Shown here: positions 26,914 through 46,348 of the stretch, one piece after another | Numbering within the stretch: the stretch's first letter is position 1 | Layout of the letters: every line of letters begins with the position of its first letter | NCBI GenBank assembly: GCA_023053545.1 | Contig: JAKZAN010000004.1 | Coordinates: 8,494,001-8,558,000, forward strand | Direction of reading: 5' to 3' | Origin: Lepidurus packardi | Lineage: Eukaryota > Arthropoda > Branchiopoda > Notostraca > Triopsidae | DNA length: 64,000 nt | Notes under the pieces: generated by a model | What the model was told of the DNA's origin: nothing | What the model saw: the letters and a program-made list of their open reading frames with translations, nothing else | Database searches by the model: none | Translations under genes and position numbers: made by a program

Positions 26914-29900
26914 TCACTTCGTAACTTCGGAAATACATGGACTAACAATGGAAGCATCTGTCTTCTCGGAGGAAAAAGACATTTCTTTAACGAGGGAAAT
27001 ATCTGCTTTCTCGGAAGAGCAAGATGTTTCATTATCATCAACTCCGGAAATATCTGGCATCTCGACGGATCCCGGCATTTCCGAAATCATAAAATGCGGC
27101 GGAGGAAGAGTCTCCTCTTCCAACACGTTTGTAACATTCCCACATTCGATGAACTCGATAGTTTGATGTTCTTCCATGAAAATTTTAAGGTTCATCAGTG
27201 ACGCCATATTCTTCTCAAACGGGTCTTTTGACATTTCCGAGAGCAAATCCGCAACACTCGTCAAAAGTTCCATTGCTTTGGCATGCTTTGCTTCTTTCGT
27301 AAGCTCCTCCTCTTCTATATGCTCCACCTCCATTAACATATACTAGAAAAGTAAAGCAGAAAAAGTAACATTATAACCTGAAATTGAAATACTGACATCT
27401 CATAAAGAAATTATTACTTCAGGGTCATCTTGATGCTGCTTCCAACGTTTGTTGCAAATCGTTTCTCCCATTGGCGCTTTTCGCATTTTTCTCACATGCA
27501 TAATATGTTGACAAGGTAATTCATGAGTGTTGAAAAACAGACACGTGCAGGTCTTCATCTCGCTCGAAACACGATACGTAGCCCCGCCTTGTTCATTCGT
27601 AGTCACTTCAATCCATTCATTATCCTAAAAAGTATAAACAAGTCATTGAATCACACATAAAACAACCAAATCAAACTAACTAGATACATATAAATTCAAA
27701 AATATCGCTAATTAATGAACAACAGATTCAGAAAAAATATCATTAAAATATAAAATGTAGTATAATAAAAATCGTAAATAAAATGAATACATTTTGATGC
27801 TAAATCTAACACTTTTTGTATTTTTTAACTTCTTGAATCTTTTCAACGAAAATCTTTTTGAAAAAACGTTGACGCTTAATAAGGAAGAAAGGTTTACCTC
27901 CTGAGCGATTCGAAGTCCTGTGCCCGATTTTTTGAAATGTGAAAAGACCAATGCAGCAGCAAATGGAGTTAATTCACCCAAAAAACTGTTGAAATCCGAG
28001 TTTTTGGTCTGAGGTGATTTGATATCACGCTCCATGATCTGCATGCCTGATTCCTGGGCGTTCCCTTTCGTAATATTCAAGACGCCCTTAATGACGCAAG
28101 ACACCGAACTGCCAATTGGAAGCGCTTCCTTGACCAATTTGTGGAATTTATCCATGCGATTGGTAGTATTGTTCTGGAGGGTAAATAACGTTTTCCGGAA
28201 GGCTGTGGCCCACAATTCCGCTTTTCCAAACCAATCAAGGAAAATTGCCCCTACTTGTTCTAAAGTAGTCAGACAAAATAAAGACAATTAATTGAAAAAT
28301 AGAAATACATAAAAAAAAATCTAGGCAAATAATGTATTGATTATTTACCTTAGTTGACTACTTTAAAAGAAAAATAAAAAATTTTTACCATGAGTTGTGA
28401 GTTTGCCTTGATACTTTTCAAACTCTTCAATATTGGGTGTATTCATTGCTTTCTTGAATTTCTGCAGTAATTTCCGTTTTTGAGCCAAATCAAGGGTAGT
28501 TTTGCCCAAAAGAGCTTCCACAATCTTACTAGCGTAAGACTGGCAAATGACGACGCGAGCATTGGTGAAAATCGAAGAGTAGAATGCCATTTCGTCGCCG
28601 TGTTTGTTAATAATTACTGTTCTGGTCTTGCTAAGGTCATTATTCTAAACAAAACAAAATAAATAACCAAAGTTTCCTTTTAAAAAGTCTTTAAAATCAG
28701 CTTAAAAATTTCTAGCGTAAATAGTTTTTAATTACCTTTGTGAAAAGTTCAAGGCATGATTTAACTGCACCAAAAGACTCGTTTTTGACCAGAAAGAAGG
28801 CTGCAGGTTGACTATTGCCGTTATTGTCCACCACAATAAGGGCGTATAAGGTCATTTCCCCTTTGCTGACGGCATACGAGCCGTCAATGAAGCAAACGTC
28901 CCCAAATTTGGAAAAGTGAGACCGCTGCTCTTTCAATTGGAGATAGATGCCATGCACAGAAGAATCTTCGGAATGGAAAATATGAGCAAAGTTTAGCGGA
29001 TCTTGTGAAATCTCCTCCAAAAGGCCACAAGTGATCTTCCAGTCTTTGCCAGGTTCCACAGTGGTAAATTTATGTTTCAAATTATAAATGTCTTTGGTCT
29101 TCAAATGCACATCAAAGTTGCTCAGCACGGACTTGCGAATAGTGGAAGGGGTCACATTAGCTTCCAGACTGGCTTTAATGAACGATTGCGCTTCAATACT
29201 CAACCGTCTAAATGAAGAGGAAAAAGCTCATCGAATTAAAATTACCCAGTAACCGAACTAAAATGAACCTAATTGAAATACATTATATTTTCTATGTCTA
29301 TTTACTTGGTGCGGTGGTAGAGTTTGATATGCTCAGCTGACATAACATGGTTCGCGTGTTTGGCGTTCAATTCTGTAATCACAAGCTTCTTGAACTGCGC
29401 AATATAAGTAACCGTAAAGGTGAATGGACAATTCTTGGCAAAAACGTTCTGGTTAACTCGTAGCAACTTTTCGCATCTCGCACGATGTACTCCATAATGA
29501 ATGCAGACAAAAACCACTCTTCGATATTTCATGGACTCGTCAATCTTGTTTTTTAACTACAAAATCCACAAAGATTCCTTGTTGGTTTCTGTTTGTTATT
29601 GTTCGTTATAAACACAAGACCAAAAAGACCTTACGGCTTGATTGTAGGCTTTCACAGTATTGCAATTTTCAATCCGCAAAGGGAAAAAGTGTTCTGTTTT
29701 CAAAGTATTGACCAGGTCGTTCACTTCATCGTAGCTGTTAAACTCACGTCCAATATAAAGGATCTTCTCCAGTGCCACTTGGCTTTCATCTTTCTCTGGT
29801 GCTGAAAATTAGATGCATACAAACTGAAATCAATTTTATTACAGTAGTTTAAAATAATTACCTGGAGTGTCCGTTTTGCGATGATTTTCCGCTTCAGCAG

Positions 29901-31751: not shown

Positions 31752-31755
31752 GAAC
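31752..31755. repeat. Left target-site duplication GAAC
   Basis: GAAC immediately precedes the left terminus and the same four bases follow the right terminus at 44587-44590. A 4-bp duplication is usual for Gypsy-integrase-related transposases. Confidence 0.8.
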
Positions 31756-31770
31756 TGTTGCGACCCAAGT
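31756..31770 (+). repeat. Left terminal inverted repeat
   Basis: TGTTGCGACCCAAGT, exact complement of 44572-44586. Inward of this, CCCGAGTTCGAGCTCGGG and ACCCAAGTTCGTACTTGGGT form short palindromes that resemble those near the right end, but the perfect repeat stops at 15 bp. Confidence 0.85.
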
Positions 31771-32576
31771 TCGATATCTGCCCGAGTTCGAGCTCGGGCA
31801 GCCCAAGTTCGTACTTGGGTAGACACTGAACTTGGGACGCGAGGCATCTGCCCAAGTTCGATGCTTAAAAGTATGAACTTTATATTTGACGTGACACATT
31901 TTGCAGAGGCGTGGCATTTTCCAAAAGAAGGGTGTAGCTTTCGGTGTGACTTTATCTACTTGCAAACATGATCCGTTGGAGTCGCTCTTAATTGTATTTT
32001 CTCTCCAGTATAAAGCTTATTAAAATTGTTATTCTTTCTTATTCAACCCGTGAACAAAAATATAAACAAATGGTATCTCTTTTAACGGAAAAGATTTAGT
32101 GAACTTATGTGAAGTTACTTAACTTAGACAGACACAGATTCATTTTAAATGTATTTTGTATTTATATATTTCATAGAAATCGAAGGATGCTTAAAACTTC
32201 TCATTCGACATCCAAACATAGACCTTCGTTGTGTCAAATCTCCTACTTTCTATTCAAGTTTGTACTTGTGAATGTAACCCTTTCTTAGTGATTACACCGT
32301 TGCGTTTCATGTATTGTTCATGCAGTTAAAATAGTGAATAAAGTGTTAATAAACTTTTTTGTTGTTGTTAAGAAAAGGAGACCGCGTTGCTCGGTCTCTT
32401 TGTATTCGCGTATTAAATAAAATCGATACATATGATAGAATAATAAACTTGATGAAATTAATTAACTGGTTTCTTTTTGTTCTGAAAATGCGATGGAAAA
32501 AGTGCTCTCTCTACATAATACTGAACTTGAGCTACCCAGCATAAGTTCGAACTATTGGGTAAACATATAGCTCAAG
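31771..32576. other. Left subterminal region of the transposon
   Basis: About 800 bp between the left terminus and the left arm. It contains short palindromes of the CCCGAGTTCGAACTCGGG family at 31776-31810 and one weak copy near 32527-32560. No gene was recognised. Confidence 0.6.
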
Positions 32577-32948
32577 AATTCCCCATAAGCGTCATGTTTT
32601 GAGAGAGTTTTTATAAGATTTAATAGCACACTTAACCTGTTGATGTAATAAATTAAGTGGTTTATCTTTGTGCTGTGAACATGCTATGAGAAGGGGCTTT
32701 TTCTACACAATACCGAACTCGGGTTCCCAAAAGTTAGAACTCTATCGGTAATAGCCCTATATTGTTCAAGAATTGAGACAATATTGTAAAATTTGATTGA
32801 ATAAAAATCTTGCTTATGATTTTAAAAAGTTTGAGAGACCTTTCGTAAAATTGTATAAAATAATAAGCTTGTTGATGTAATAAATTAAGTGGTTTCTCTT
32901 TTTGTCGTGAACTAGCTGTGAATAGTCCTTTCTCTACGCAATACTGAA

Positions 32949-33411
32949 CTTGGGCTCCCCAAGTTCGAACTCGGGTAACCCGAGTTCGAACTCGGGGAGC
33001 CCAAGTTCAAGAAATCCCCATAAGCGTCCTATTTTGAGAGAGTTTTTATAAGATTTAATAGCACACTTAACCTGTTGATGTAATAAATTAAGTGGTTTAT
33101 CTTTTTGTCGTGAACTAGCTGTGAATAGTCCTTTCTCTACGCAATACTGAACTTGGGCTCCCCAAGTTCGAACTCGGGTAACCCGAGTTCGAACTCGGGG
33201 AGCCCAAGTTCAAGAAATCCCCATAAGCGTCCTATTTTGAGAGAGTTTTTGTAAGATTTAATAGCACACTTAACCTGTTGATGTAATAAACTAAGTGGTT
33301 TATCTTTTTGTCGTGAACTAGCTGTGAATAGTCCTTTCTCTACGCAATACTGAACTTGGGCTCCCCAAGTTCGAACTCGGGTAACCCGAGTTCGAACTCG
33401 GGGAGCCCAAG
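32949..33411. repeat. 203-bp tandem repeats centred on 57-bp palindromes (left)
   Basis: Near-perfect palindromes of 57 bp lie at 32949-33005, 33152-33208 and 33355-33411, spaced exactly 203 bp. Each half reads CTTGGGCTCCCC followed by a GTTCGAAC core and CGGGT. The palindromes could form cruciforms or act as repeated transposase-binding sites. Confidence 0.9.
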
Positions 33412-33936
33412 TTCAAGAAATCCCCATAAGCGTCCTATTTTGAGAGAGTTTTTATAAGATTTAATAGCACACTTAACCTGTTGATGTAATAAATTAAGTG
33501 GTTTATCTTTGTGCTGTGAACATGCTATGAGAAAGGGCTTTTTCTACACAATACCGAACTCAGGTTCCCAACTTTGAACTCTATCGGTTGCCCTATGTTC
33601 AAGAATTGCCTGCAAATGTCTTTTTTTAATATAATGGTGCAATATATACCAAATGTGTGTATATTTTCAAAAGTTTGGTTCACTCGGGTATGTTCACTAA
33701 ATGGAATGCCTATATTTATTAAAATTTCATTTGAACTTATGTAGCAGACAAAGCAAATAAATGCTTAGCATCGAAATTGAAAATATAATATTCGTATATG
33801 TGATGTAAAGGGAAGGGAAGTTAAGGGGATTCGTAAATGTGAAGAGTGCGCAGTGCATTTAAGGACAAGGATTTCCCCTATTGGTCGGAATATAACAATA
33901 TAAGTACAGTCTATATATTCAATATAAGTACTTGGG

Positions 33937-34390
33937 ATGACCGTATTCCACTTCTCATTTTACTGTGGTCTTACTAAGAGCGCGAAGCTTGTTTACCATG
34001 GAAGGTATATCCTCCCATCTCCTGTGAAGGCGTTTGCTACCAATTTCGTTTTTTCTTTTCTTACAGGAAAATGCAATTTAATTGATAATTGTGAAGAGTG
34101 TCTTGGTGATGGCGACTGTGCCTTCATGGTTGGACCCAACGACGGGGACATCGTCTGTTTCAACGAAGATACGGGGCACCCGCTGGCACCCTACTATGCT
34201 CGTATTGAGCATTGCGGTAGTAATACATTTTCTTTTAATAGAATATGCTAAATTCGATTCTTTAGATGAAAGTACCTACATTCGAGTGGCTACAAGCCTC
34301 GTCGTTCTTGCAGTTTGTGTAATTTGCGTACTTGGAGTTATGGTTTACTGGTACGCTCTGAAATGCTTTAATTACAAAACTTTATCCTAA
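33937..34390 (+). CDS. Small PSI-like cysteine-rich single-pass membrane protein (cargo copy 1)
   Basis: Likely exons 33937-34216 and 34266-34390 (134 residues), joined in phase through a 49-bp intron with GTAGTA donor and TTTAG acceptor. The core reads KCNLIDNCEECLGDGDCAF, then cysteines about every 12-25 residues, then a single strong membrane helix (VATSLVVLAVCVICVLGVMVY) and a short tail. The order PSI-like C-x5-C-x2-C-x5-C module, then one helix near the C-terminus, recalls PTTG1IP-type proteins, but this is a weak resemblance. The 5' end is uncertain: a possible acceptor (CTTACAG) precedes the core at 34065, and no convincing signal peptide was found. An identical copy lies in the right arm. 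Function in the element is unknown. Confidence 0.55.
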
Positions 34391-34929
34391 TGATTTGTCG
34401 TTATAGTAAACGACGGCGTAATCGACGGAATGAAATAGTATAGGAAAATTACTCATGCTTTTGATCCTCTTCATGCTTTTGTGTTTCCGGTTTTTGTAAT
34501 CCAGTTTACGATTTGTAGTTTAATCGGACATTGTATGCTTTTGATTTTTTCAATGGTTTTTATTGTGCTTTTATCATATTTTGTGATTTTTCTCAATTTT
34601 TATGTCTAAAAACTTTGAATACATAAGTTAACCTTGTTTTCATCTATCTTGTCTGTTCGGTGAAATGTTTTAACAATTTACGCAGCTCCTTTTCCGAAAT
34701 AAATTTTCCGTTTATTTACTCTTTTCGTTACCTCCTGACAACACAAATTTTACACGTTTTCCGAAGGTTTTGCCTTCGAAAGGCTTGGAAAGATACGGTC
34801 CGAAAGGGTTGGAAAGCAATGCTATATCGGTTCTTCCGTCCCCCAGCAACCATCGTCGCATCCCAGCACTCAACCATCGTCGTTCTGATTTGAGGTCACA
34901 CAGTGCAAACATTGTCGGCTTTTCAAAAT

Positions 34930-37900
34930 TTAGCTTTCGTCGCTGTTTCCACAAGTTCCACAAAACCAGTCTTTATCCTTGTGCTCCGCCATGTGAAAAT
35001 TCGTTGCACAAAGGTAATGAAACCATGACAAGCATCGGTCACACTGTACAGTTTTGTTTTTCGCCGGTAGACTGCATGCAGGACAGCAAAATAGCTTTTT
35101 CCCGCGCTTTTCTGCGATGAACTTTTTTACGGTAATCTTGGCTTGCGGTGTGAGGTACGTATATACTCGGTTAAATTCTTTGTTAACCCGCTGGTCAAGA
35201 ACTCCATCCGAGATAGCCCGGGAATCTAATTTTAGATCGCTATTGTCGGCCTTTTCTAGTTTTTTAATTCCTTTGTCCAGACTCGATTCCTTCAGAAGCC
35301 ACGATAACACTAAGTGCGTCTTTTCTGTAGGCAGCATGTTTTCAAACTTTAGTGGTCCGGCTCGCAATTTTCTCGACGCCGGAACCGAAGGATGTTTAAA
35401 ACTGGTCGCACGTACCGTTGTGCGATTGCCTTGTTCCTTTTGTGTTACGGCCCAATTTAGGACAGTAGTAGCATGAGACGACTGCTGCTTCCCAGCCTTA
35501 GATTTGGAATCCATCGCTAGCTGCCGAAAAGTAATGGTTTAGGTTAGGTTATAGCAGAGATGTCTTGTTTTCTACCTGATACTCGAGCAATTTGTATGGA
35601 CTTCGGTTAGTCGAAGCTTCAATTGTCACAGCATTGGAAGCCCAAAGAAGACAGATCTTTGCATCGCGCAGAATTTCTAAATCATCGGGGGTGTGAGCAA
35701 TAATTCTATAGCGGTACCAGTAATCATCCAAATCACGATCCAGGATTACAGTGGGGTAATCCAAGGCCCCCGTTTCCTTAATACGCTTTTCCATTTTATT
35801 GTTTAATTTCCATTTTTGTTCCAACTATAAAAGGAATTTTAGGGTGAGGAATTTGTGCCATTGAATACCTTACGTAGGGGATGGTAACATGCTCCTCAAA
35901 GTGATGCATGTTTGCCTGAATCCATGCATATGCAGCATATAACGACGGTAGCACCGTGCGTAAATGCTTGAGTTTCGTGGAATGAAAAAGCGTCTCCAAC
36001 TTATTAGTAACTGTCGAGCAAAAAGTAATTAAATCTTAATCGGGTAAGTTTGAATTCTTCAATAAAATTACCTTTTCGTACAACTTGGTTTGAACATAAT
36101 CGTCCTCTATGACATGTCGTGCTGCATCGAAGAGATTTTATTGTACGGGAGAGGTCAGTTGGATCCAGCAAATTAACGGTCGTTCGACAAGGACAGAATT
36201 TTGGTGCGCAATAATTATCTTTGCATTGGCAGTTGAATTTTTTAAATAAATCATCCTCAGTTAAGGGCTGTGGTTCGTCTTCCATAGGGATAGCCTCCTC
36301 GTTGACTGCTTAAATGATTGAAAAGTAAAAATCAATCAGCAATTTAGGAGGAAGAATCAAAATGCGTACCCATGTCTGCATCAGTGAATTGTGGTTCAGC
36401 GGACTGAATCGCTGACTGGTCATCGAGTGGTCCCGCTTGTGTTTCTGTTTTGAATAATTAGAGTAGTCATCTTCGCGTTTTTCTTTGCAGCAGTATGGTA
36501 ATAAACTTACCCATGTTCTCATCGATAAGATCACAAGTCCTTCCGTTATGGCACAAAGCCGACCAACACGGAATGTCAGCCTTCTTGCATTCACATTCCT
36601 TACTGTTTATACATGACTCCGTGCAGTCACACATGATTCGGTTATTCTGGGTTGGGAGGCCTTTCCCTACATGTAATTATATATTGTTGTATGGAACGGG
36701 ATTAAATGATATATTCACAAAATTGATTTACTTTTTGAACAGTTCTTGCTGCAAGTGCATTCCATATCACAGAATGCTCGACAGGAACAATCTTCTGCCA
36801 CATCGCAGCCTTCAATGCAGTCACACCCATTCGAAGATTTTTTTGCTTGATGTTCTGTACCGCAGAATAAGTTTGACATTGTTATATTCATTTGCAACTC
36901 ACTTAATTCTCGTGCTTCGGCATTGTTGCAAGCTTGTTCGCCATGGCAAAGTTCGGTACATCTCCGTGAGGCCTGCATGCACTTGCAAAATTTTTTCAAA
37001 CACATCTTACGGCAGCTACAAGAAGTCGCATCTGGATCATAAATAAATAAGTCGGGACTTTAAGCCTTGTATCTCTCTTAAATAATTTATGTGCTTACCA
37101 GCTTGATCCCAAAAATGGTCTTCAGAGACTTTCAAACGATATTGTAGTCCTTGCTCCGACAACACCTGCATTTCATCTACCGGAATGGATCTGTACGGTT
37201 CGTGATATTCAGGTTTGCAATAGTCGTTCGAATCGTCAGAGTTCACATCTCCTAAAAGAAAAACAAAACCTTACCCTCTTCGCCCCAAAACAAAGTGAAG
37301 AAATTACCAGCAAGGTTATATGCGGAGCCGATCACTTCGTTTACTTTAAACCTCAGAGCTTGAAAGTATAATTGTGTAACTGCCATACTTGTTTCAGAAA
37401 GCGCCTGGTTTTGGCAGTACCTTCCACCATGACAAGCCGATGTGCAATTTTTTAACGTTCGGTTACACCTGCACCGCTTAGTTTCACAATCACTTTTACA
37501 CTCGCAAATGTCTACTTTGCTTTTACCGCCGTAAAAAAGTCGAACCGCCGTCCTTAGCGGTATAACTTCGTAACTTTTACAATGGTAGAGTTGCTTAAAT
37601 TTCTGTTCATAAAGCTCTAAGTGATTTTCCGTATATGACTCCCGAAGTACCCCGTGGAACGACTGGACGGTGTAGGTTCGGTATGTATCACCGCTCACTC
37701 TGATGACTATACCTGGAAGGCGGCTGCTCTCCAAGCTTGTCCGGTCTTTGGTGGGAATTAACACGGTAACGTGGTTCCCTACTTCTAGCTTGGTTGTGCG
37801 TTTGCACGGATTTAACCCAGCCTTTTGATTCATAGTTTCATGGCTATGGGATAATGCTGCTGCCGCTTGGCTGCGGACAAAGCGGAAGATGGCCAGACGA

Positions 37901-39707
37901 TCCTCGTTTAGTGGTGCAACACCGTCAAGCTAAAATAAAAATACATAAAAAAATTAAATATGATGAACCATGGCAGTAATTTTGTTTTCTTGGTGGAAAA
38001 GTGCACGCAGGTAGTACCTCTGAGTCCGTTTCAGCGACTTCAACATCCGTGCAGATCACACCACTTCTACCGCAGTAGGCTTCGATGACCGGATTGGCAG
38101 TTGACGTGGAAGCTAGCGCAAAAGGGTCCTCTTCAGGTTCCATTAACTCCTGAGTCGGCGATTTCAGGCATACCACATCTCCACCGCAGTAGGCTTCGAT
38201 GACCGGATTGGCAGTTGACGTGGAAGCTAGCGCAAAAGGGTCCTCTTCAGGTTCCAATTCCTGAGTCGAAACAGATAATTTTTCAAGTGATAGCTCAGGA
38301 ACATTGGAAGGAACAACATCATCATTGGAAGAAACTTACAGCATCAAGGGTATCTAGAAAAATGAAGTCCGCTGACAGAGTAGGAAGAGGTTCTGATCCG
38401 TCTTCCTCGCTATCTTCTGAATCAGGACCCAATGGCAGTTCCGTAGTGGTATAATCAGCAGCTGGTGTTGGGTTTAGTTCCGGTCTTCCATAAGGTACCG
38501 GAGCTTTCCCAAACATGACCGCGAATGAAGATAGTTGGCCAATGGGTTGTGATCTTCTCGTATTCATTTGATCTGAAAATAAAATACAACATTATTCCAT
38601 TACAAACCCAAATCCCTCATTGTTTAATCAAAAGAATATTACACTGAACTACTGGCAGCCAGTAGAGCCAGGTTCTTTGTTGCTTGTCGGTCAGCGTGCG
38701 GTTACGAAGCAATTTCTTCAGCTCAGCGTTGGCCCGCTCAACTACTCCTTGGCTTTGGGGATGTCGTACCCTTCCAAAGATATGTTGTATGGGCCAATTA
38801 CTTAAGCCCGCTGCCAACGCCTGTGAAATAATATTAATCTTCCTTTAGTATCCGTTCATGTTCATGTTAACAGTATTACTTGATCCCGAAATTCAGTTCC
38901 ATTATCTGTCTGGAGCCTTTTTGGGGGTCCAAACACGCTGAACACGTATCTCAGTAAGCCTTCATAGATTTCCGTCCCATTTTTTTTGCGCATTGGCCAT
39001 AGAATATGGAAACGGGACGCCAAGTCTACATACTGGGCTATGTAGCGATACCCGTCGACAACCGACTTCTTCGGCAGAAGGACCAGATCGAGCTACCAAA
39101 GAAAAAATAAAATCTGTAAGCTTTTCCCCGTATCTTCTCAGGACCACTTACCTGTCCTTGTGACATGACATCACTGGCAACCACGTGCCTCATGGGAGTT
39201 GCATTTGTTTGGACTTTTTTGGTTGCACAGTACGGGCACATTTGGGTATATTCTTCAACTAAAAAACGGGTTACTCCATAGTAATACGCTTGCACCTAAA
39301 ACAATGTTATAGTATGGTAAGCTTGATATATTGCTTAATTAACTTACATAATGAAACGCCGCCCTAGGTGACGTATGATTCGTGTCATTTTCGTGCACCT
39401 TCTTGATGTAATCGTACATTTCTTCAGCCCGGACGACGCGCTTGAAAGGTTGACGCGCGTACCCTTTTGCCATACTTTGGGACGGCTCAGTAAAGCACGC
39501 AACGTATTCCTCACCGCTTTCGTCAGTTTGCAAAATAAATTTTCTACTTATTTCATTACTTAACGTCGCCCCTTCTTTTTGTTTATGCAATTCGGCAAGA
39601 ATCTTCTGATATTTCTCATTGGTGATAATCACCGAGTTGCGAACTCTGGCTTTTTGTCGTACCACTAAATCAAATTTCTCGCAATCCACAGGACCAAGAC
39701 CCTGCAT
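34930..39707 (-). CDS. Integrase-type transposase with CXC clusters and PHD finger
   Basis: Fifteen exons, all in phase without a stop: 39348-39707, 39152-39295, 38880-39092, 38643-38820, 38340-38572, 38018-38260, 37308-37929, 37099-37251, 36732-37031, 36511-36666, 36370-36444, 36072-36305, 35874-36010, 35576-35824, 34930-35520 (1,295 residues). H2C2 finger: His near 105-119, CPYC at 140-143. Catalytic core D170, D231 (QTDNGTEF) and E267 (GVVERAN); D231 and E267 are separated by exactly 35 residues. A KLEVGNHVTVLIPTKDR block and then C-x-C...CHGGxxC clusters follow, at least four, as in KRBA2/SCAND3-type proteins, which I recall having one. A C4HC3 PHD finger ends the protein (about 1244-1295). 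The start is the first ATG in the first open exon; an acceptor-like TTGCTTGCAG at 39744 leaves a 5' exon possible. Exon 6 contains a 114-bp in-frame duplication. Confidence 0.88.
38036..38260 (-). repeat. 114-bp in-frame tandem duplication within transposase exon 6
   Basis: The block encoding EPEEDPFALASTSTANPV and the following IEAYCG occurs twice, offset by 114 bp (38 codons). About 80 bp of each copy are identical. The linker between the integrase core and the CXC region is therefore locally repeated without loss of frame. Confidence 0.85.
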
Positions 39708-39953
39708 TTTAAACTTAATGTAAGGAGCAGAATTAGCAAACTGCAAGCAACATGATAACTAAAAAAGAAAGGACAACAACTTAAAGACAAGTTTAATCTC
39801 ACTATCACATTAATATAGAGGCAAGAGCAACACTCAACACAACACAACCGAAGCACACATGCAGCAGGTCAGACGAGCTGTACTTGCGCCCAGAGCTAAA
39901 AATCGGTCTTCAAAATTGGCGAGCGAAATCGCATTTCGCTCGCAATTTTAAAA
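39708..39953. promoter_or_regulatory. Transposase 5' region with hairpin at the arm junction
   Basis: This 246-bp stretch lies between the transposase start and the right arm and should contain its promoter or leader. An inverted repeat at 39912-39949 (AAAATTGGCGAGCGAAAT paired with its complement, one bulged base, 3-base loop) stops four bases before the arm begins. Confidence 0.6.
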
Positions 39954-42133
39954 GAACTTGTGGAAACAGCGACGAAAGCTAAATTTTGAAAAGCCGACAA
40001 TGTTTGCACTGTGTGACCTCAAATCAGAACGACGATGGTTGAGTGCTGGGATGCGACGATGGTTGCTGGGGGACGGAAGAACCGATATAGCATTGCTTTC
40101 CAACCCTTTCGGACCGTATCTTTCCAAGCCTTTCGAAGGCAAAACCTTCGGAAAACGTGTAAAATTTGTGTTGTCAGGAGGTAACGAAAAGAGTAAATAA
40201 ACGGAAAATTTATTTCGGAAAAGGAGCTGCGTAAATTGTTAAAACATTTCACCGAACAGACAAGATAGATGAAAACAAGGTTAACTTATGTATTCAAAGT
40301 TTTTAGACATAAAAATTGAGAAAAATCACAAAATATGATAAAAGCACAATAAAAACCATTGAAAAAATCAAAAGCATACAATGTCCGATTAAACTACAAA
40401 TCGTAAACTGGATTACAAAAACCGGAAACACAAAAGCATGAAGAGGATCAAAAGCATGAGTAATTTTCCTATACTATTTCATTCCGTCGATTACGCCGTC
40501 GTTTACTATAACGACAAATCATTAGGATAAAGTTTTGTAATTAAAGCATTTCAGAGCGTACCAGTAAACCATAACTCCAAGTACGCAAATTACACAAACT
40601 GCAAGAACGACGAGGCTTGTAGCCACTCGAATGTAGGTACTTTCATCTAAAGAATCGAATTTAGCATATTCTATTAAAAGAAAATGTATTACTACCGCAA
40701 TGCTCAATACGAGCATAGTAGGGTGCCAGCGGGTGCCCCGTATCTTCGTTGAAACAGACGATGTCCCCGTCGTTGGGTCCAACCATGAAGGCACAGTCGC
40801 CATCACCAAGACACTCTTCACAATTATCAATTAAATTGCATTTTCCTGTAAGAAAAGAAAAAACGAAATTGGTAGCAAACGCCTTCACAGGAGATGGGAG
40901 GATATACCTTCCATGGTAAACAAGCTTCGCGCTCTTAGTAAGACCACAGTAAAATGAGAAGTGGAATACGGTCATCCCAAGTACTTATATTGAATATATA
41001 GACTGTACTTATATTGTTATATTCCGACCAATAGGGGAAATCCTTGTCCTTAAATGCACTGCGCACTCTTCACATTTACGAATCCCCTTAACTTCCCTTC
41101 CCTTTACATCACATATACGAATATTATATTTTCAATTTCGATGCTAAGCATTTATTTGCTTTGTCTGCTACATAAGTTCAAATGAAATTTTAATAAATAT
41201 AGGCATTCCATTTAGTGAACATACCCGAGTGAACCAAACTTTTGAAAATATACACACATTTGGTATATATTGCACCATTATATTAAAAAAAGACATTTGC
41301 AGGCAATTCTTGAACATAGGGCAACCGATAGAGTTCAAAGTTGGGAACCTGAGTTCGGTATTGTGTAGAAAAAGCCCTTTCTCATAGCATGTTCACAGCA
41401 CAAAGATAAACCACTTAATTTATTACATCAACAGGTTAAGTGTGCTATTAAATCTTATAAAAACTCTCTCAAAATAGGACGCTTATGGGGATTTCTTGAA
41501 CTTGGGCTCCCCGAGTTCGAACTCGGGTTACCCGAGTTCGAACTTGGGGAGCCCAAGTTCAGTATTGCGTAGAGAAAGGACTATTCACAGCTAGTTCACG
41601 ACAAAAAGATAAACCACTTAGTTTATTACATCAACAGGTTAAGTGTGCTATTAAATCTTATAAAAACTCTCTCAAAATAGGACGCTTATGGGGATTTCTT
41701 GAACTTGGGCTCCCCGAGTTCGAACTCGGGTTACCCGAGTTCGAACTTGGGGAGCCCAAGTTCAGTATTGCGTAGAGAAAGGACTATTCACAGCTAGTTC
41801 ACGACAAAAAGATAAACCACTTAATTTATTACATCAATAAGCTTATTATTTTATACAATTTTACGAAAGGTCTCTCAAACTTTTTAAAATCATAAGCAAG
41901 ATTTTTATTCAATCAAATTTTACAATATTGTCTCAATTCTTGAACAATATAGGGCTATTACCGATAGAGTTCTAACTTTTGGGAACCCGAGTTCGGTATT
42001 GTGTAGAAAAAGCCCCTTCTCATAGCATGTTCACAGCACAAAGATAAACCACTTAATTTATTACATCAACAGGTTAAGTATGCTATTAAATCTTATAAAA
42101 ACTCTCTCAAAATAGGACGCTTATGGGGATTTC
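39954..42133 (-). repeat. Right inverted arm
   Basis: Mirror copy of the left arm, about 5.0 kb away across the transposase gene. It begins at 39954 with the sequence of the last codons and stop of the transposase, present here as a fragment without its gene. It contains two 203-bp palindrome units and the second membrane-protein copy. Confidence 0.92.
40522..40975 (-). CDS. Small PSI-like membrane protein (cargo copy 2)
   Basis: Mirror-image copy of the 33937-34390 gene, exons 40696-40975 and 40522-40646, with identical predicted protein. Both copies point inward, towards the transposase gene. Perfect preservation of frame in both copies is explained by the near-identity of the arms and is not by itself evidence of selection. 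The same doubts about the 5' end apply. Confidence 0.55.
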
Positions 42134-42195
42134 TTGAACTTGGGCTCCCCGAGTTCGAACTCGGGTTACCCGAGTTCGAACTTGGGGAACCTAAG
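41501..42195. repeat. Palindrome repeats of the right arm
   Basis: Matching 57-bp palindromes lie at 41501-41557 and 41704-41760 (203-bp spacing), with a further, slightly diverged copy at 42139-42195 at the outer edge of the arm. Same structure as the left array but one unit shorter. Confidence 0.88.
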
Positions 42196-42239
42196 TACGG
42201 TATTGTGTAGAAAAAGCCCTTTCTCTGCGCAAAACAACA

Positions 42240-44042
42240 GAACGCAAATCAAACATCTGACCTTCACAGACAGTCGCCAACGTAGCATAGAGAAACTCGA
42301 CACCGCAATGCTAAAATTCATCAAAGAAATGCAAACAAAACGAAACGACGAAAATAGACAAATCAAAATTGAACTGGACGCCATTAACAGTACCTTGAGA
42401 CACCTAACATTGAGATACCTAAGAGACACTAATGAAGGCCATTTCATACGAAGATTCAACCCCCAACTTAATTCCGAGGAAAAAACGGGGAATCCTTAAC
42501 GGTGGAGGTGAAGTCTTGCGCTGGCTTTTTGGCACCCTTAGCAGCAAAGATCTAGAAGACATTAACCGAAAATTCAGCAGGATAACAAAGGACAATAGAA
42601 TGCTGTATCATTTAGAAGAACAACAGGCTACATTACTAAACGGCACGTACCTGCAGGTCCGGAAAAATGTGGACGCTATTTCAAAAATTACGAAAGCAGT
42701 GAGTAGCCTTGCCAGTAGTGTTGAAGACCTCGAAGCTGTGATTTCAGAATTTGGAGATTTTTATGCGTTTACGTGGAATTTTGCTCGAAAATTGGACAAC
42801 GCTTATCATACCCTTGGTACCATTATACTTTGGTTACACCAAAACGTTAATAACATGAACACGGGCTTGTCAACAATAGCGTCAGGACGACTTTCACCAA
42901 ACATAATTCCTCCAACAGAGCTATGGCAAATTCTTCAAGAAGTAAGCCGCTACCTATCCCGCAACTGGGTCGTAACAAAGGCGGCAGAACCAGGGAACAT
43001 GTGGACCCATTATCAGGAATTCCGGGTGCGTTCAGCAGCAACACTCCAAGGCACACTGAAAATCTTCGTGGACATACCACTACAAGATTTAAGTACTACA
43101 CTTGATCTATATCAACTAATAGCTCTACCGACTTTTTTACCTGGAGGGAATTTCTCAGTTGACACAATACGATTATCTCGGCTTAACAAGCGACAGACAG
43201 TCGTATGTTGAATTTACTTCCTCAGAATTGGCAGAAACTTGTACAACAGGATCAGCGAAGATTTGCTCCACCAGTAAAGCCCTCAAGCGTGGCATCCATG
43301 GGCGCTCTTGCTTGTATGCTGCGTTCTTTAATGATACTGTCTTGATTGCGGAATTGTGCAAAAAGACAGTCCGAATAGACGGCAGGCCATGGTGTCATTA
43401 CCTTGGGAAAAACAAATGGATCTATTCAATACCTCAACCAATGCAACTTACAATATCTTGCCCAGAAGAACGACGTCCAGAAGCCTACAGCAAGAGTTCC
43501 AGTGTCCAGCTAAATGATGTGGGCATCTTAGAACTACCGGATGGCTGCTCAGCTCACTCCGGGTGGTGGACCTTTCCGGCAAACTTGGAAAAACTTAATA
43601 ATTATACAATCCACACCAGCACTATAGACGTAAAAAATATCTTTTCCGATTTAGATTTTAACTTACCATATCCTGTTGTGCAACTCCCAAAACCAAATCA
43701 TCAAGGATTAACGCAAATTACCAAAGACATTTTGGAAGACCTACAGAAAAAAGTACATTAGACCCAAATTGGGAAATCAGATACAAGTTGTTCGAAAAAG
43801 CAGTTCAAGATTCAAAACCTATTTTTAATAATCTGAGTGACGAAATTTCGTATGTCTGTCTGACCCAAAGCTTCTTGACCCAATTTTTACTATACTGTTG
43901 GGCTGTTGTGATTACTGCCGCCACAGTATTTGCCCTCCCTGCCATCATCTATATGTTTTTGAGGCTTAGATGGCTGACAAGAAAACAAATTGAACTACTT
44001 CGTCTCTGGCAAGCTTACTTGATGTTGATGATAAATAAGTAG
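42240..44042 (+). pseudogene. Degraded F-type envelope glycoprotein gene (errantivirus/baculovirus F-like)
   Basis: Relic of a class of membrane-fusion envelope genes known from insect errantiviruses and baculoviruses. The coding signal runs through successive plus-strand frames: up to about 42499 (helical, N-terminal part), 42432-43211 (furin-type RKKR site followed by a glycine-rich hydrophobic segment and a heptad-like helix), 43159-43761 (cysteine-rich ectodomain), and about 43745-44042 (transmembrane helix and short tail). Frame changes occur before the cleavage site, in the 43159-43211 overlap, and at an A run near 43746-43752. The last two could in principle be sequencing errors, but no signal peptide was found and the 5' part merges into palindrome repeats. 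The gene therefore appears truncated and non-functional. It lies wholly inside the transposon, between the right arm and right terminus. Confidence 0.83.
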
Positions 44043-44571
44043 GGTATAGTGAATTATAAATTCCAACTTGTAATTCAATATTATTATTATAATAACCATA
44101 CCTGGATATCCAACTTCTGCATGCTATACGTTTGAGCTACTGTTATTATATGAGTGAACATTAGTTACCAACAAACTTTTCAAGTACTGTACCCCAAAAA
44201 CAATAATAAAAATAATGATACATATAAATTGAGGAGTGACAAGCACAACTCTACTCTTTAGTGATGAAAGTCGACACAAGTGGCGTAAACTGCAATTCTA
44301 AGTAGCCCCTCCTACATGCAACGCCTCCAAGTAAAGTAGTCTACACTCCACTGTAAACAAAACTTGTCATGTAAACTTCGAAGATAAATATTTAAATAAG
44401 TTGTGAAATTACTGCCAAGGTAATAATGCCAAATTAAAGATAACTAAAGCAGTAAACTGTATTGTTAATTTCACTTGCAAAAACTGTGTAGGTGTGGAGA
44501 ACTTTAGTGTCAAATATTGCTACCCGAGTTCGAACTTGGGTTACCCGAGTTCGAACTCGGGTAGAGGCTCT
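44043..44571. other. Right subterminal region of the transposon
   Basis: About 530 AT-rich bases between the envelope relic and the right terminus. Apart from the palindromes at 44521-44564, nothing was recognised. Confidence 0.6.
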
Positions 44572-44586
44572 ACTTGGGTCGCAACA
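44572..44586 (-). repeat. Right terminal inverted repeat
   Basis: Exact complement of the left 15 bases, followed by the GAAC duplication. Just inside (44521-44564) are two copies of the ACCCGAGTTCGAAC-type palindrome. Confidence 0.85.
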
Positions 44587-44665
44587 GAACCGCAACTTGA
44601 GACGAAAACGTTTAGATAAAAGTACCGCTATTGAATATTTTACACAATCTCTTTTTATTATTAGG

Positions 44666-46348
44666 ATGAATAGAGCTTGCGAAACACCTCACTTGGACAT
44701 AAGAATATCTCAGGACCATTTAGTAGAAGGAGCTTTAGAGATAGCAACAATCCTAAGACCTCTGTGGCCCCAAGATAAGATCCAAACGACAGTAACTAAT
44801 CGTTGTTTAATTAAACTATTATTTCTGTGACCTAAGAAAACATTATGCGCTGTTTAAGGTGTTTAAAAATGGGATTACCAATAAGCTAGTTGGAGTTTTC
44901 TTGCCCAGTAACGAAAAACAAACGATCCTGATTCGGGTTTATGGAGAGAAAACTGAGCAAATTATCGATCGATATGTCGAAATCTATAATATAAAGGTAC
45001 TTTTCTATATATAGCTTCAGAAAAATTGACCCCTTCTTCATCAAGATTTTCTTGGCAACAATAGGTGTTGCAAGTAGAAGGCCTTGCTCCTCAATTATTC
45101 GCCACTTTCCATAACGGATTGTGCTACTCTTACTTTGAGGGCTCGACTTTATCAGTGGAAGCTGTAAGGGATCCTACTTTATGTCCCTTAATAGCGTCAC
45201 GTCTTGCCAGATTCCATAACTTCAAACCCGATGCCCAGATCGATGGTAGGAAGCCAGTCGTACCAGTTTTATGGGAAAAACTCACCAAGTTTCTGGCCAT
45301 GGTCCCAGAGACTTACTCGGACAACGTGAAACAATCAAAGTATGCCCTCTTTAAAATATTCAGAAAGCCTTCTAAGCTGTTTTGATGGGATAGATTTTTA
45401 ACGCACGTGCCTAGCAAAGCATTGTTGTTTGCAGAACTGCGTAGACTTGAGACCAAACTTAGTCAATTAGGAAGTCCGGTGGTGTTTTGCCACAATGATT
45501 TATTGCTCAATAACATCATCCACAACTCCAAGGATGGTTCGGTAGAATTCATCGATTTCGAGTATGCCGGGTTTAATTACCAGGCTTTTGATATTGCTAA
45601 TCACTTCTGCGAATTCGCGGGTAGGTTCCAAGTCTTAAATAAAATACACTGACAATGAACAATTTTGTGTTCATCGTCAGACAAGATAACGATTATTAGC
45701 CATTTAAAGTTAATAGACAGTAATAAAAGTTTAGAAATAAGCTGGACAATTTTCTAAGACCAACAATGAATTGTTTTCAAAGCGAGAAGAACTTTCATTA
45801 TAAAATTGGAAACTTTCATTGTTGACTTAGAATCATTGTTGACTAAATATAGCTTCATCATTTTCACTGTTTGGTATTCCTGTAACTTTCAGTGTTTGCA
45901 AAAATAAGGAAAAGGAAAATATCGAAATTTTTCGTGCGTGAGCAATAGTGTCTAAAGCCTTGTTATTTGTCCTTCCTTTCTTTTCAGGTGTCGATGATGT
46001 TGATTACAACAGATTCCCTGATGCGGGTTTCCAGCGGGAGTGGCTTCGGAATTACCTGAAGGCTTTTTTAGTCCAAGACGACGTAGATCATCACATAGAA
46101 GCATTATTTTGCCAAGTTGAGCAATTTGTGCAAGCCTCTCACTTCTTTTGGGGCGTATGGGCTCTAGTCCAAGCAGCTTATTCAACCATCGATTTTGATT
46201 TCTTGAGGTAAGTCAGAACACCCTTCCCCACATAAAAAAAGATTGGTAATAATAATAGTATTTTTCAAAGAGAAATATTAATAGTGTGTCTAATTTTAAA
46301 AGTTATGGTATTCTACGACTGCAAGAGTACAAAAAATGGAACATGTGA
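44666..46348 (+). CDS. eas: Ethanolamine kinase (easily shocked / ETNK)
   Basis: First enzyme of the CDP-ethanolamine pathway, phosphorylating ethanolamine with ATP in the cytosol. Exons: 44666-44791, 44859-44996, 45065-45339, 45394-45620, 45988-46207, 46303-46348, all in phase, 343 residues. It begins MNRACETPHLDIRIS and contains the FKNGITNKLVGVF substrate-entry loop, LIRVYGEKTEQIIDR (nucleotide lysine-equivalent region), the Brenner motif CHNDLLLNNII with catalytic Asp at about 215, and the metal site FIDFEYAGFNYQAFDIANHF. The last exon (YGILRLQEYKKW) is short but expected in the family. A TTATTATTAG acceptor sits directly before the ATG, so a 5' untranslated exon probably lies upstream. 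The 12.8-kb transposon ends 79 bp upstream of the ATG (75 bp after its duplication) and may separate promoter from gene. ETNK rather than choline kinase is supported by the NGITN and HNDLL contexts. Confidence 0.94.

Follow-up and report, generated by a model that had tools for sequence, protein, structure and literature searches.

What holds an integrase gene, two long inverted arms and the remains of a viral-type envelope gene together between one pair of ends, and do they move as one? The question is raised by a segment of 12,831 bp at positions 31756..44586 of a 64,000-nucleotide stretch of Lepidurus packardi DNA (contig JAKZAN010000004.1, positions 8,494,001 to 8,558,000), the whole of which is called the window here. 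An earlier note, made from the letters of the window, had described the segment as an apparently intact integrase-type DNA transposon with cargo. Copies found across the genome, their target-site duplications and paralogous empty sites uphold the integrase-type DNA transposon. The segment very probably belongs to a recently mobile, Ginger-like family of such transposons, in which the core is found in either orientation and an envelope gene is carried as a passenger.

The ends lie exactly where they had been placed. At 31756 and 44586 the element is bounded by a perfect 15-bp inverted repeat, TGTTGCGACCCAAGT, which starts with TGTTG, and the sequence GAAC flanks it on either side (31752..31755 and 44587..44590). 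The 15 bp begin an imperfect terminal inverted repeat of 68 bp, with 55 of 68 positions identical (81-82%), at 31756..31823 on the forward strand and 44519..44586 on the reverse strand. Each terminal repeat contains two palindromic CCRAGTTCGNNCTYGG units, and all 16 such units found in the window sit within the element, in its ends and its internal arms.

Copies were searched for in the same 108.6-Mb genome. A probe of 145 bases from the left end gave at least 21 full-length matches at 99-100% identity, and one of 187 bases from the right end gave at least 19 at 98-100%. Pairing of the ends yielded 18 insertions, with identical 4-bp flanks in 17; second copies with the same ends, on whose existence the earlier note had made its reading depend, are therefore present. 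L010, L011, L012, L019, L022, L024, L028, L033, L034, L043 and L054 stayed unpaired for want of a partner. L025, L026, L029, L051, L052, L053 and L055, diverged or truncated matches missed by the end patterns, were likewise left unpaired. The whole 12.8-kb unit is found again at 99.6-99.97% identity, as judged from the three long copies compared.

The exactness of the ends comes from the empty sites of another copy, C1:4385836, which was inserted in a repeat. Its joined flanks gave 43 genomic matches, of which 9 span the junction and continue to where the query ends; many more cross by 16 bases only. In the three of these nine that were read, GGCC occurs once in the paralogous empty site, and at the filled site it borders the element on either side. 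The flanks of the 18 pairs show a weak symmetrical preference, TG[GNNC]CA (at three columns, T in 14/18, G in 11/18 and C in 12/18; binomial P of 1e-5 to 1.3e-4 against the composition of the window, uncorrected for the number of columns). A CCGG or CCGT/ACGG duplication, the Ginger1 feature, occurs in none of the 18 pairs; the RTATAY target of Ginger2/Tdd was not seen either, and TATA forms one of the 18 duplications.

Two observations on the genomic copies may be added. The region G000:C2:7991759-8015212 contains two left ends and one right end with a gap of N between them, which reflects a nested insertion or an assembly artefact. Diverged relatives with about 75-86% DNA identity lie at G000:C2:836895, C2:690623, C3:2804842-2811814 and C4:4276383, and they point to older waves of the family.

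Within the ends, the element is organized around two internal inverted arms, at 32569..34958 on the forward strand and 39954..42140 on the reverse strand, both with 203-bp tandem repeats (about 32830-33530 in the left arm). The arms match each other over 1,926 nt at 99% and over an overlapping 759 nt at 98%. Their inner 1,353 bp show no difference within each of three copies compared; between copies, two agree over this length and the third differs at 3 sites, which are the same in both of its arms. Copy C3:6607576 has the same length as the window copy and 99.97% identity to it, with a stretch between element bases 1320 and 10082 that aligns in inverted orientation, and the breakpoints of the inversion fall somewhere within the arms. 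In the other inverted copy, C3:7592035, there is a shift of about 203 bp, which is one repeat unit. Among 11 core-bearing copies, a total that takes in the two copies in the gapped C2 region and a C6 copy for which no left end was found, the window orientation occurs in 9 and the inverted one in 2. The end of the transposase frame is present in each arm, so that the gene stays open after a flip. Homologous recombination together with gene conversion between the arms would be the simplest cause of both the flip and the identity of the arms.

Shorter derivatives were also found. From five copies of 4.3-5.4 kb the core and the inner arms have been lost, with the ends and the envelope region still in place, and one copy of 213 bp retains the ends only. 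Matching duplications flank all six, which suggests that they were mobilised by help from elsewhere. The inversion of the core, the identity of the arms within a copy and the descent of the short copies from the element are new beyond the earlier note.

The transposase gene occupies 34933..39707 on the reverse strand. In a model whose splice sites were picked by hand it is predicted to comprise 16 exons separated by 15 GT-AG introns, and its 1,280 codons contain no stop in the window copy; the open frame announced in the earlier note was thus recovered, and the number of exons was corrected from 15 to 16. The predicted protein consists of an H2C2-like finger, an rve core, a linker, a barrel-like module, CxC repeats and a C-terminal PHD finger. 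A Pfam scan of the 1,280-residue model gave rve at 5.9e-12, with CXC below the cut-off and neither OTU nor Ulp1 among the matches at E up to 0.1. The PHD finger passes the cut-off when the last exon is scanned alone and is unlisted in the full-length scan. The D-D-35-E core is borne out by residues D170, D231 and E267, with 35 residues from D231 to E267; all three are invariant in an alignment of the window protein with its two best CxC-tailed relatives. The barrel-like module aligns with two relatives, P0001 and P0002; by eye it has no canonical GPY/F or YPYY motif of the Ginger1 kind, and it has no Pfam match. By sequence, the best solved relatives are the foamy-virus (PFV) integrases, at 1.5e-10. 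As had been stated earlier, no reverse transcriptase, capsid or DNA polymerase domain was found by Pfam in the scanned open reading frames or ORFs (8 and 10 ORFs in two scans, and the transposase model).

The transposase is also open in copy B, and in copy C2:8430189 a stop falls in the last-but-one codon of the model. The window copy and C2:8430189 differ by 8 nonsynonymous and 6 synonymous changes, against a neutral expectation of 2.58:1, too few for a conclusion. An integrase phylogeny of the kind proposed in the earlier note was run, with seven rows only. The window core is placed with P0001, P0002 and the OTU-bearing P0004, apart from the three Gypsy-type rows (98/97).

The envelope relic lies at 42255..44042 on the forward strand, in several frames with pieces at about 42255-42499, 42423-43211, 43123-43761 and 43662-44042. 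The two middle pieces match the Baculo_F family (PF12259) at 34.9 and 27.9 bits against a cut-off of 24.1, so that the relic named in the earlier note is real. A 512-codon open stretch of another copy, L078, scores 72.4 bits (4e-20). In a genome-wide search with the envelope, 48 of 98 matched stretches were distant relatives with 23-42% identity. Two distant loci were inspected: the envelope on contig C254 is preceded by the C-terminus of a Gypsy-type integrase and the one on C5 by an ORF without a family match. Gypsy-like elements are likely the kind of source from which the envelope came. At L085 (G000:C5:11286667-11288900) a 423-codon open frame, cut at the end of its locus, is found some 1 kb upstream of one of the distant envelope genes of Baculo_F type. 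By eye it recalls the nucleoprotein of negative-strand RNA viruses; it has no Pfam match and no match in PDB.

The envelope is read here as a passenger. It could instead be, or recently have been, working cargo in a virus-like element, aiding passage of the DNA transposon between cells or hosts. The envelope region is indeed present in the three long copies compared and in all five copies of 4.3-5.4 kb, and four places in the family (two of them L078 and L080) match residues 1-464 to 1-512 of a 512-residue query without a stop, with open frames of 478 to 541 codons; the long stretch of L078 still matches Baculo_F. Moreover, two short copies carry about 630 bp extra at the start of the envelope, with a frame that by eye resembles a signal peptide, and a precedent is offered by the nematode Mavericks that bear a fusogen, for which such a role has been proposed (PMC10680173). 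Yet the envelope is in more than one frame in all four copies with listed ORFs (the window, L078, L080 and L079), so the word "intact", used in the earlier note, fits the ends and the transposase frame and not this gene. All eight aligned envelope rows have gaps relative to one another, and most of these, as counted against the alignment, are of a length not divisible by three. The 27 variable sites comprise 24 nonsynonymous and 3 synonymous ones against a neutral 2.57:1 (P = 0.03 for so few synonymous), in rows that are non-independent and partly nearly identical and with one reading frame assumed throughout; no sign of purifying selection appears. The scanned ORFs also hold no capsid or DNA polymerase domain, and working cargo is considered unlikely. 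We give as little credence to a fuller scenario in which the transposon gained a complete retroelement envelope, used it to move between cells or hosts and has just lost it, and in which the core is an invertible cassette that influences transposase expression by its orientation.

Two further explanations deny that the segment is one transposon, and both are less probable still. An older transposon with long inverted repeats (the arms and the core) and a retroelement fragment might together have come to lie between fortuitous ends; the arms, core and envelope would have different apparent origins, and the palindromic units of the ends are found again inside the arms. However, the outer ends bear duplications in nearly all pairs and fit the empty sites exactly, and the entire unit is repeated at near identity, which makes this explanation very improbable. 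The element is likely of composite origin in the past, yet now mobile as one unit. Least credible of all is a degraded Gypsy retroelement or provirus of which integrase and envelope are left. The contig C254 locus, one of the two inspected, indicates that an integrase and a Baculo_F-type envelope can co-occur in this genome, but the ends of the element are inverted repeats with no direct repeat resembling a long terminal repeat, the scanned ORFs have no reverse transcriptase domain, and the integrase, which the model divides by 15 introns, stands apart from the Gypsy-type rows in the tree.

Several observations weigh against a recently mobile transposon with a flippable core, and they are considered together. 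The one mismatched pair among the 18, AAGG/AGGT, is at C2:7191717-7204552, and one of the matching pairs, C2:8015212/7991759, has an assembly gap and another left end between its two ends. A genome search with the flanks of the window insertion returned its own two flanks only and no empty allele, and no excision was observed. Copy C2:7191717 has a one-base gap within a transposase exon. The tree is small, the end branch of the window core is long and one fork lacks support; the label Gypsy in it comes from a reverse transcriptase domain for P0005 and, for P0003 and L091, from our own reading. For 8 of the 11 copies the orientation of the core depends on one 541-base probe and the positions of the ends, with three aligned at full length. 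Assembly of an element so rich in repeats could have produced the inversion, although it is seen in two copies, each at its own locus.

For the favoured reading, a recently mobile family with its envelope as a passenger, the following course may be proposed. The D-D35-E transposase would bind the ends, at a guess through the palindromic CCRAGTTCGNNCTYGG units, and would join the TG...CA termini to staggered cuts, 4 bp apart, in the target DNA; the element would leave its site by cut-and-paste excision. Recombination between the internal inverted arms would flip the core, and gene conversion would even out the arms. Deletions with breakpoints in the repeat regions would have produced the non-autonomous copies of 4.3-5.4 kb. 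The envelope region would derive from a Gypsy-like, retroelement-type gene that was gained before the family spread and is now decaying.

The arms also contain a gene of their own. As the earlier note had claimed, ORFs for a small predicted membrane protein are present in both arms, at 33928..34390 on the forward strand, in two overlapping frames in the window copy, and at 40522..40984 on the reverse strand. By eye, the protein has a Cys-rich stretch and one hydrophobic segment. In copy C2:8430189 the gene is a single 154-codon frame, and its sole difference from the window is a 2-nt gap over 701 bp. The gene region at window positions 33888-34586 has no mismatch to L084 over 701 bp, while the transposase genes of the two copies are about 0.5% different; this may be due to homogenisation between copies or to constraint. 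A homologue search with the arm protein found none, and a Pfam scan of it gave no family above the cut-off. A PSI-like arrangement of the cysteines, weighed by eye, was set aside, as Pfam gave it no backing. A splice model for the protein requires a single intron of 25 nt, which is improbably short, and a single-sequence fold prediction of the Cys-rich stretch gave an unusable mean pLDDT of 44.9.

Host genes are found around the element. A glutamine synthetase gene lies about 6 kb to the right and is most similar to that of Daphnia sinensis (75%); the remaining best matches that carry a name come mostly from crustaceans and insects, which points to a branchiopod crustacean as the probable host. 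Exons of a choline/ethanolamine kinase gene are located at 45065-46211, the first recognised one about 480 bp from the right end, and the element may sit in the upstream region of this gene. An ORF at 28712-29227 has a ZSWIM1-3 RNase H-like domain, with a MULE match just under the cut-off, and is perhaps another transposon-derived gene. Scans of the window for tRNA and Rfam families gave no matches.

Compared with known systems, we call the element Ginger-type in the wide sense and a new variant of the integrase-type DNA transposons, a member of neither Ginger1 nor Ginger2. It is placed outside both because it shows neither the target and the OTU or Ulp1 domains of Ginger1 nor the target of Ginger2, as passages of Bao et al. 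2010 (PMC2836005) describe them; the same passages mention one Ginger1 family without OTU/Ulp1 and call the excision mechanism of Ginger1 unknown. The likeness to Ginger1 in those passages takes in the integrase-like D-D-E transposase with a zinc finger, the 4-bp duplication, the presence of introns in some families and of a PHD finger in one, a TGTNR start (TGTTG here) and terminal inverted repeats of 40-270 bp (68 bp here). In the tree, the OTU-bearing relative P0004 falls on the side of the window core, among seven rows, with a long branch and one fork without support. In contrast, the Ginger1 elements described there are about 2.6-7 kb with 0-4 introns, against 12.8 kb and, in the model, 15 introns here, and the present element has no CCGG/CCGT target and no OTU or Ulp1 that could be found and adds CxC repeats, inverted arms and an envelope relic. 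Ginger2/Tdd elements, as far as those passages go, share the integrase-type core, the 4-bp duplication in metazoan families and the length of the terminal repeats; they differ in the RTATAY target, in a size of about 2.7-6.7 kb save for a 252-bp non-autonomous family, and in that no arms or cargo are described for them (PMC2836005).

The closest proteins compared, P0001 (Didymodactylos carnosus) and P0002 (ENA), align in the core, the barrel-like module and the C-terminal CxC at 27-28% identity; they are 708 and 788 residues long and by eye have one terminal CxC motif, where several are present here. Polintons, or Mavericks, make a duplication of 6 bp, against 4 bp in the present element; moreover, no DNA polymerase or capsid domain was found in the latter, and its four copies with listed frames have a broken envelope gene. 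The likeness to Mavericks with a fusogen, in the parts of PMC10680173 concerned, is that of an integrase-bearing DNA element combined with a viral-type fusion gene. Galileo and Foldback elements resemble the present one in internally repetitive inverted repeats, possibly with several transposase-binding sites; by the passages of PMC3688188 on them, however, they have a P-superfamily transposase and terminal repeats, whereas the arms here are set back from the ends by about 0.8 kb and 2.4 kb. Turmoil-1 of C. elegans likewise has inverted repeats that carry protein-coding sequence, but according to sections of PMC2572040 it has captured pieces of known host genes and its repeats are terminal, not internal as here. 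Among the titles and abstract beginnings listed in searches of open-licence papers, none reports such a composite element, and passages of PMC6431247, PMC12863088 and PMC3424704 contain nothing on one.

The current work extends the integrase-type transposons to a 12.8-kb, multi-exon and recently mobile family with two orientations of its core. A DNA transposon that multiplies a viral-type envelope gene provides a concrete case in which to ask how DNA transposons gain viral genes. Near-identical copies with an open transposase, together with paralogous empty sites, make integrase-based transposition testable in this family.

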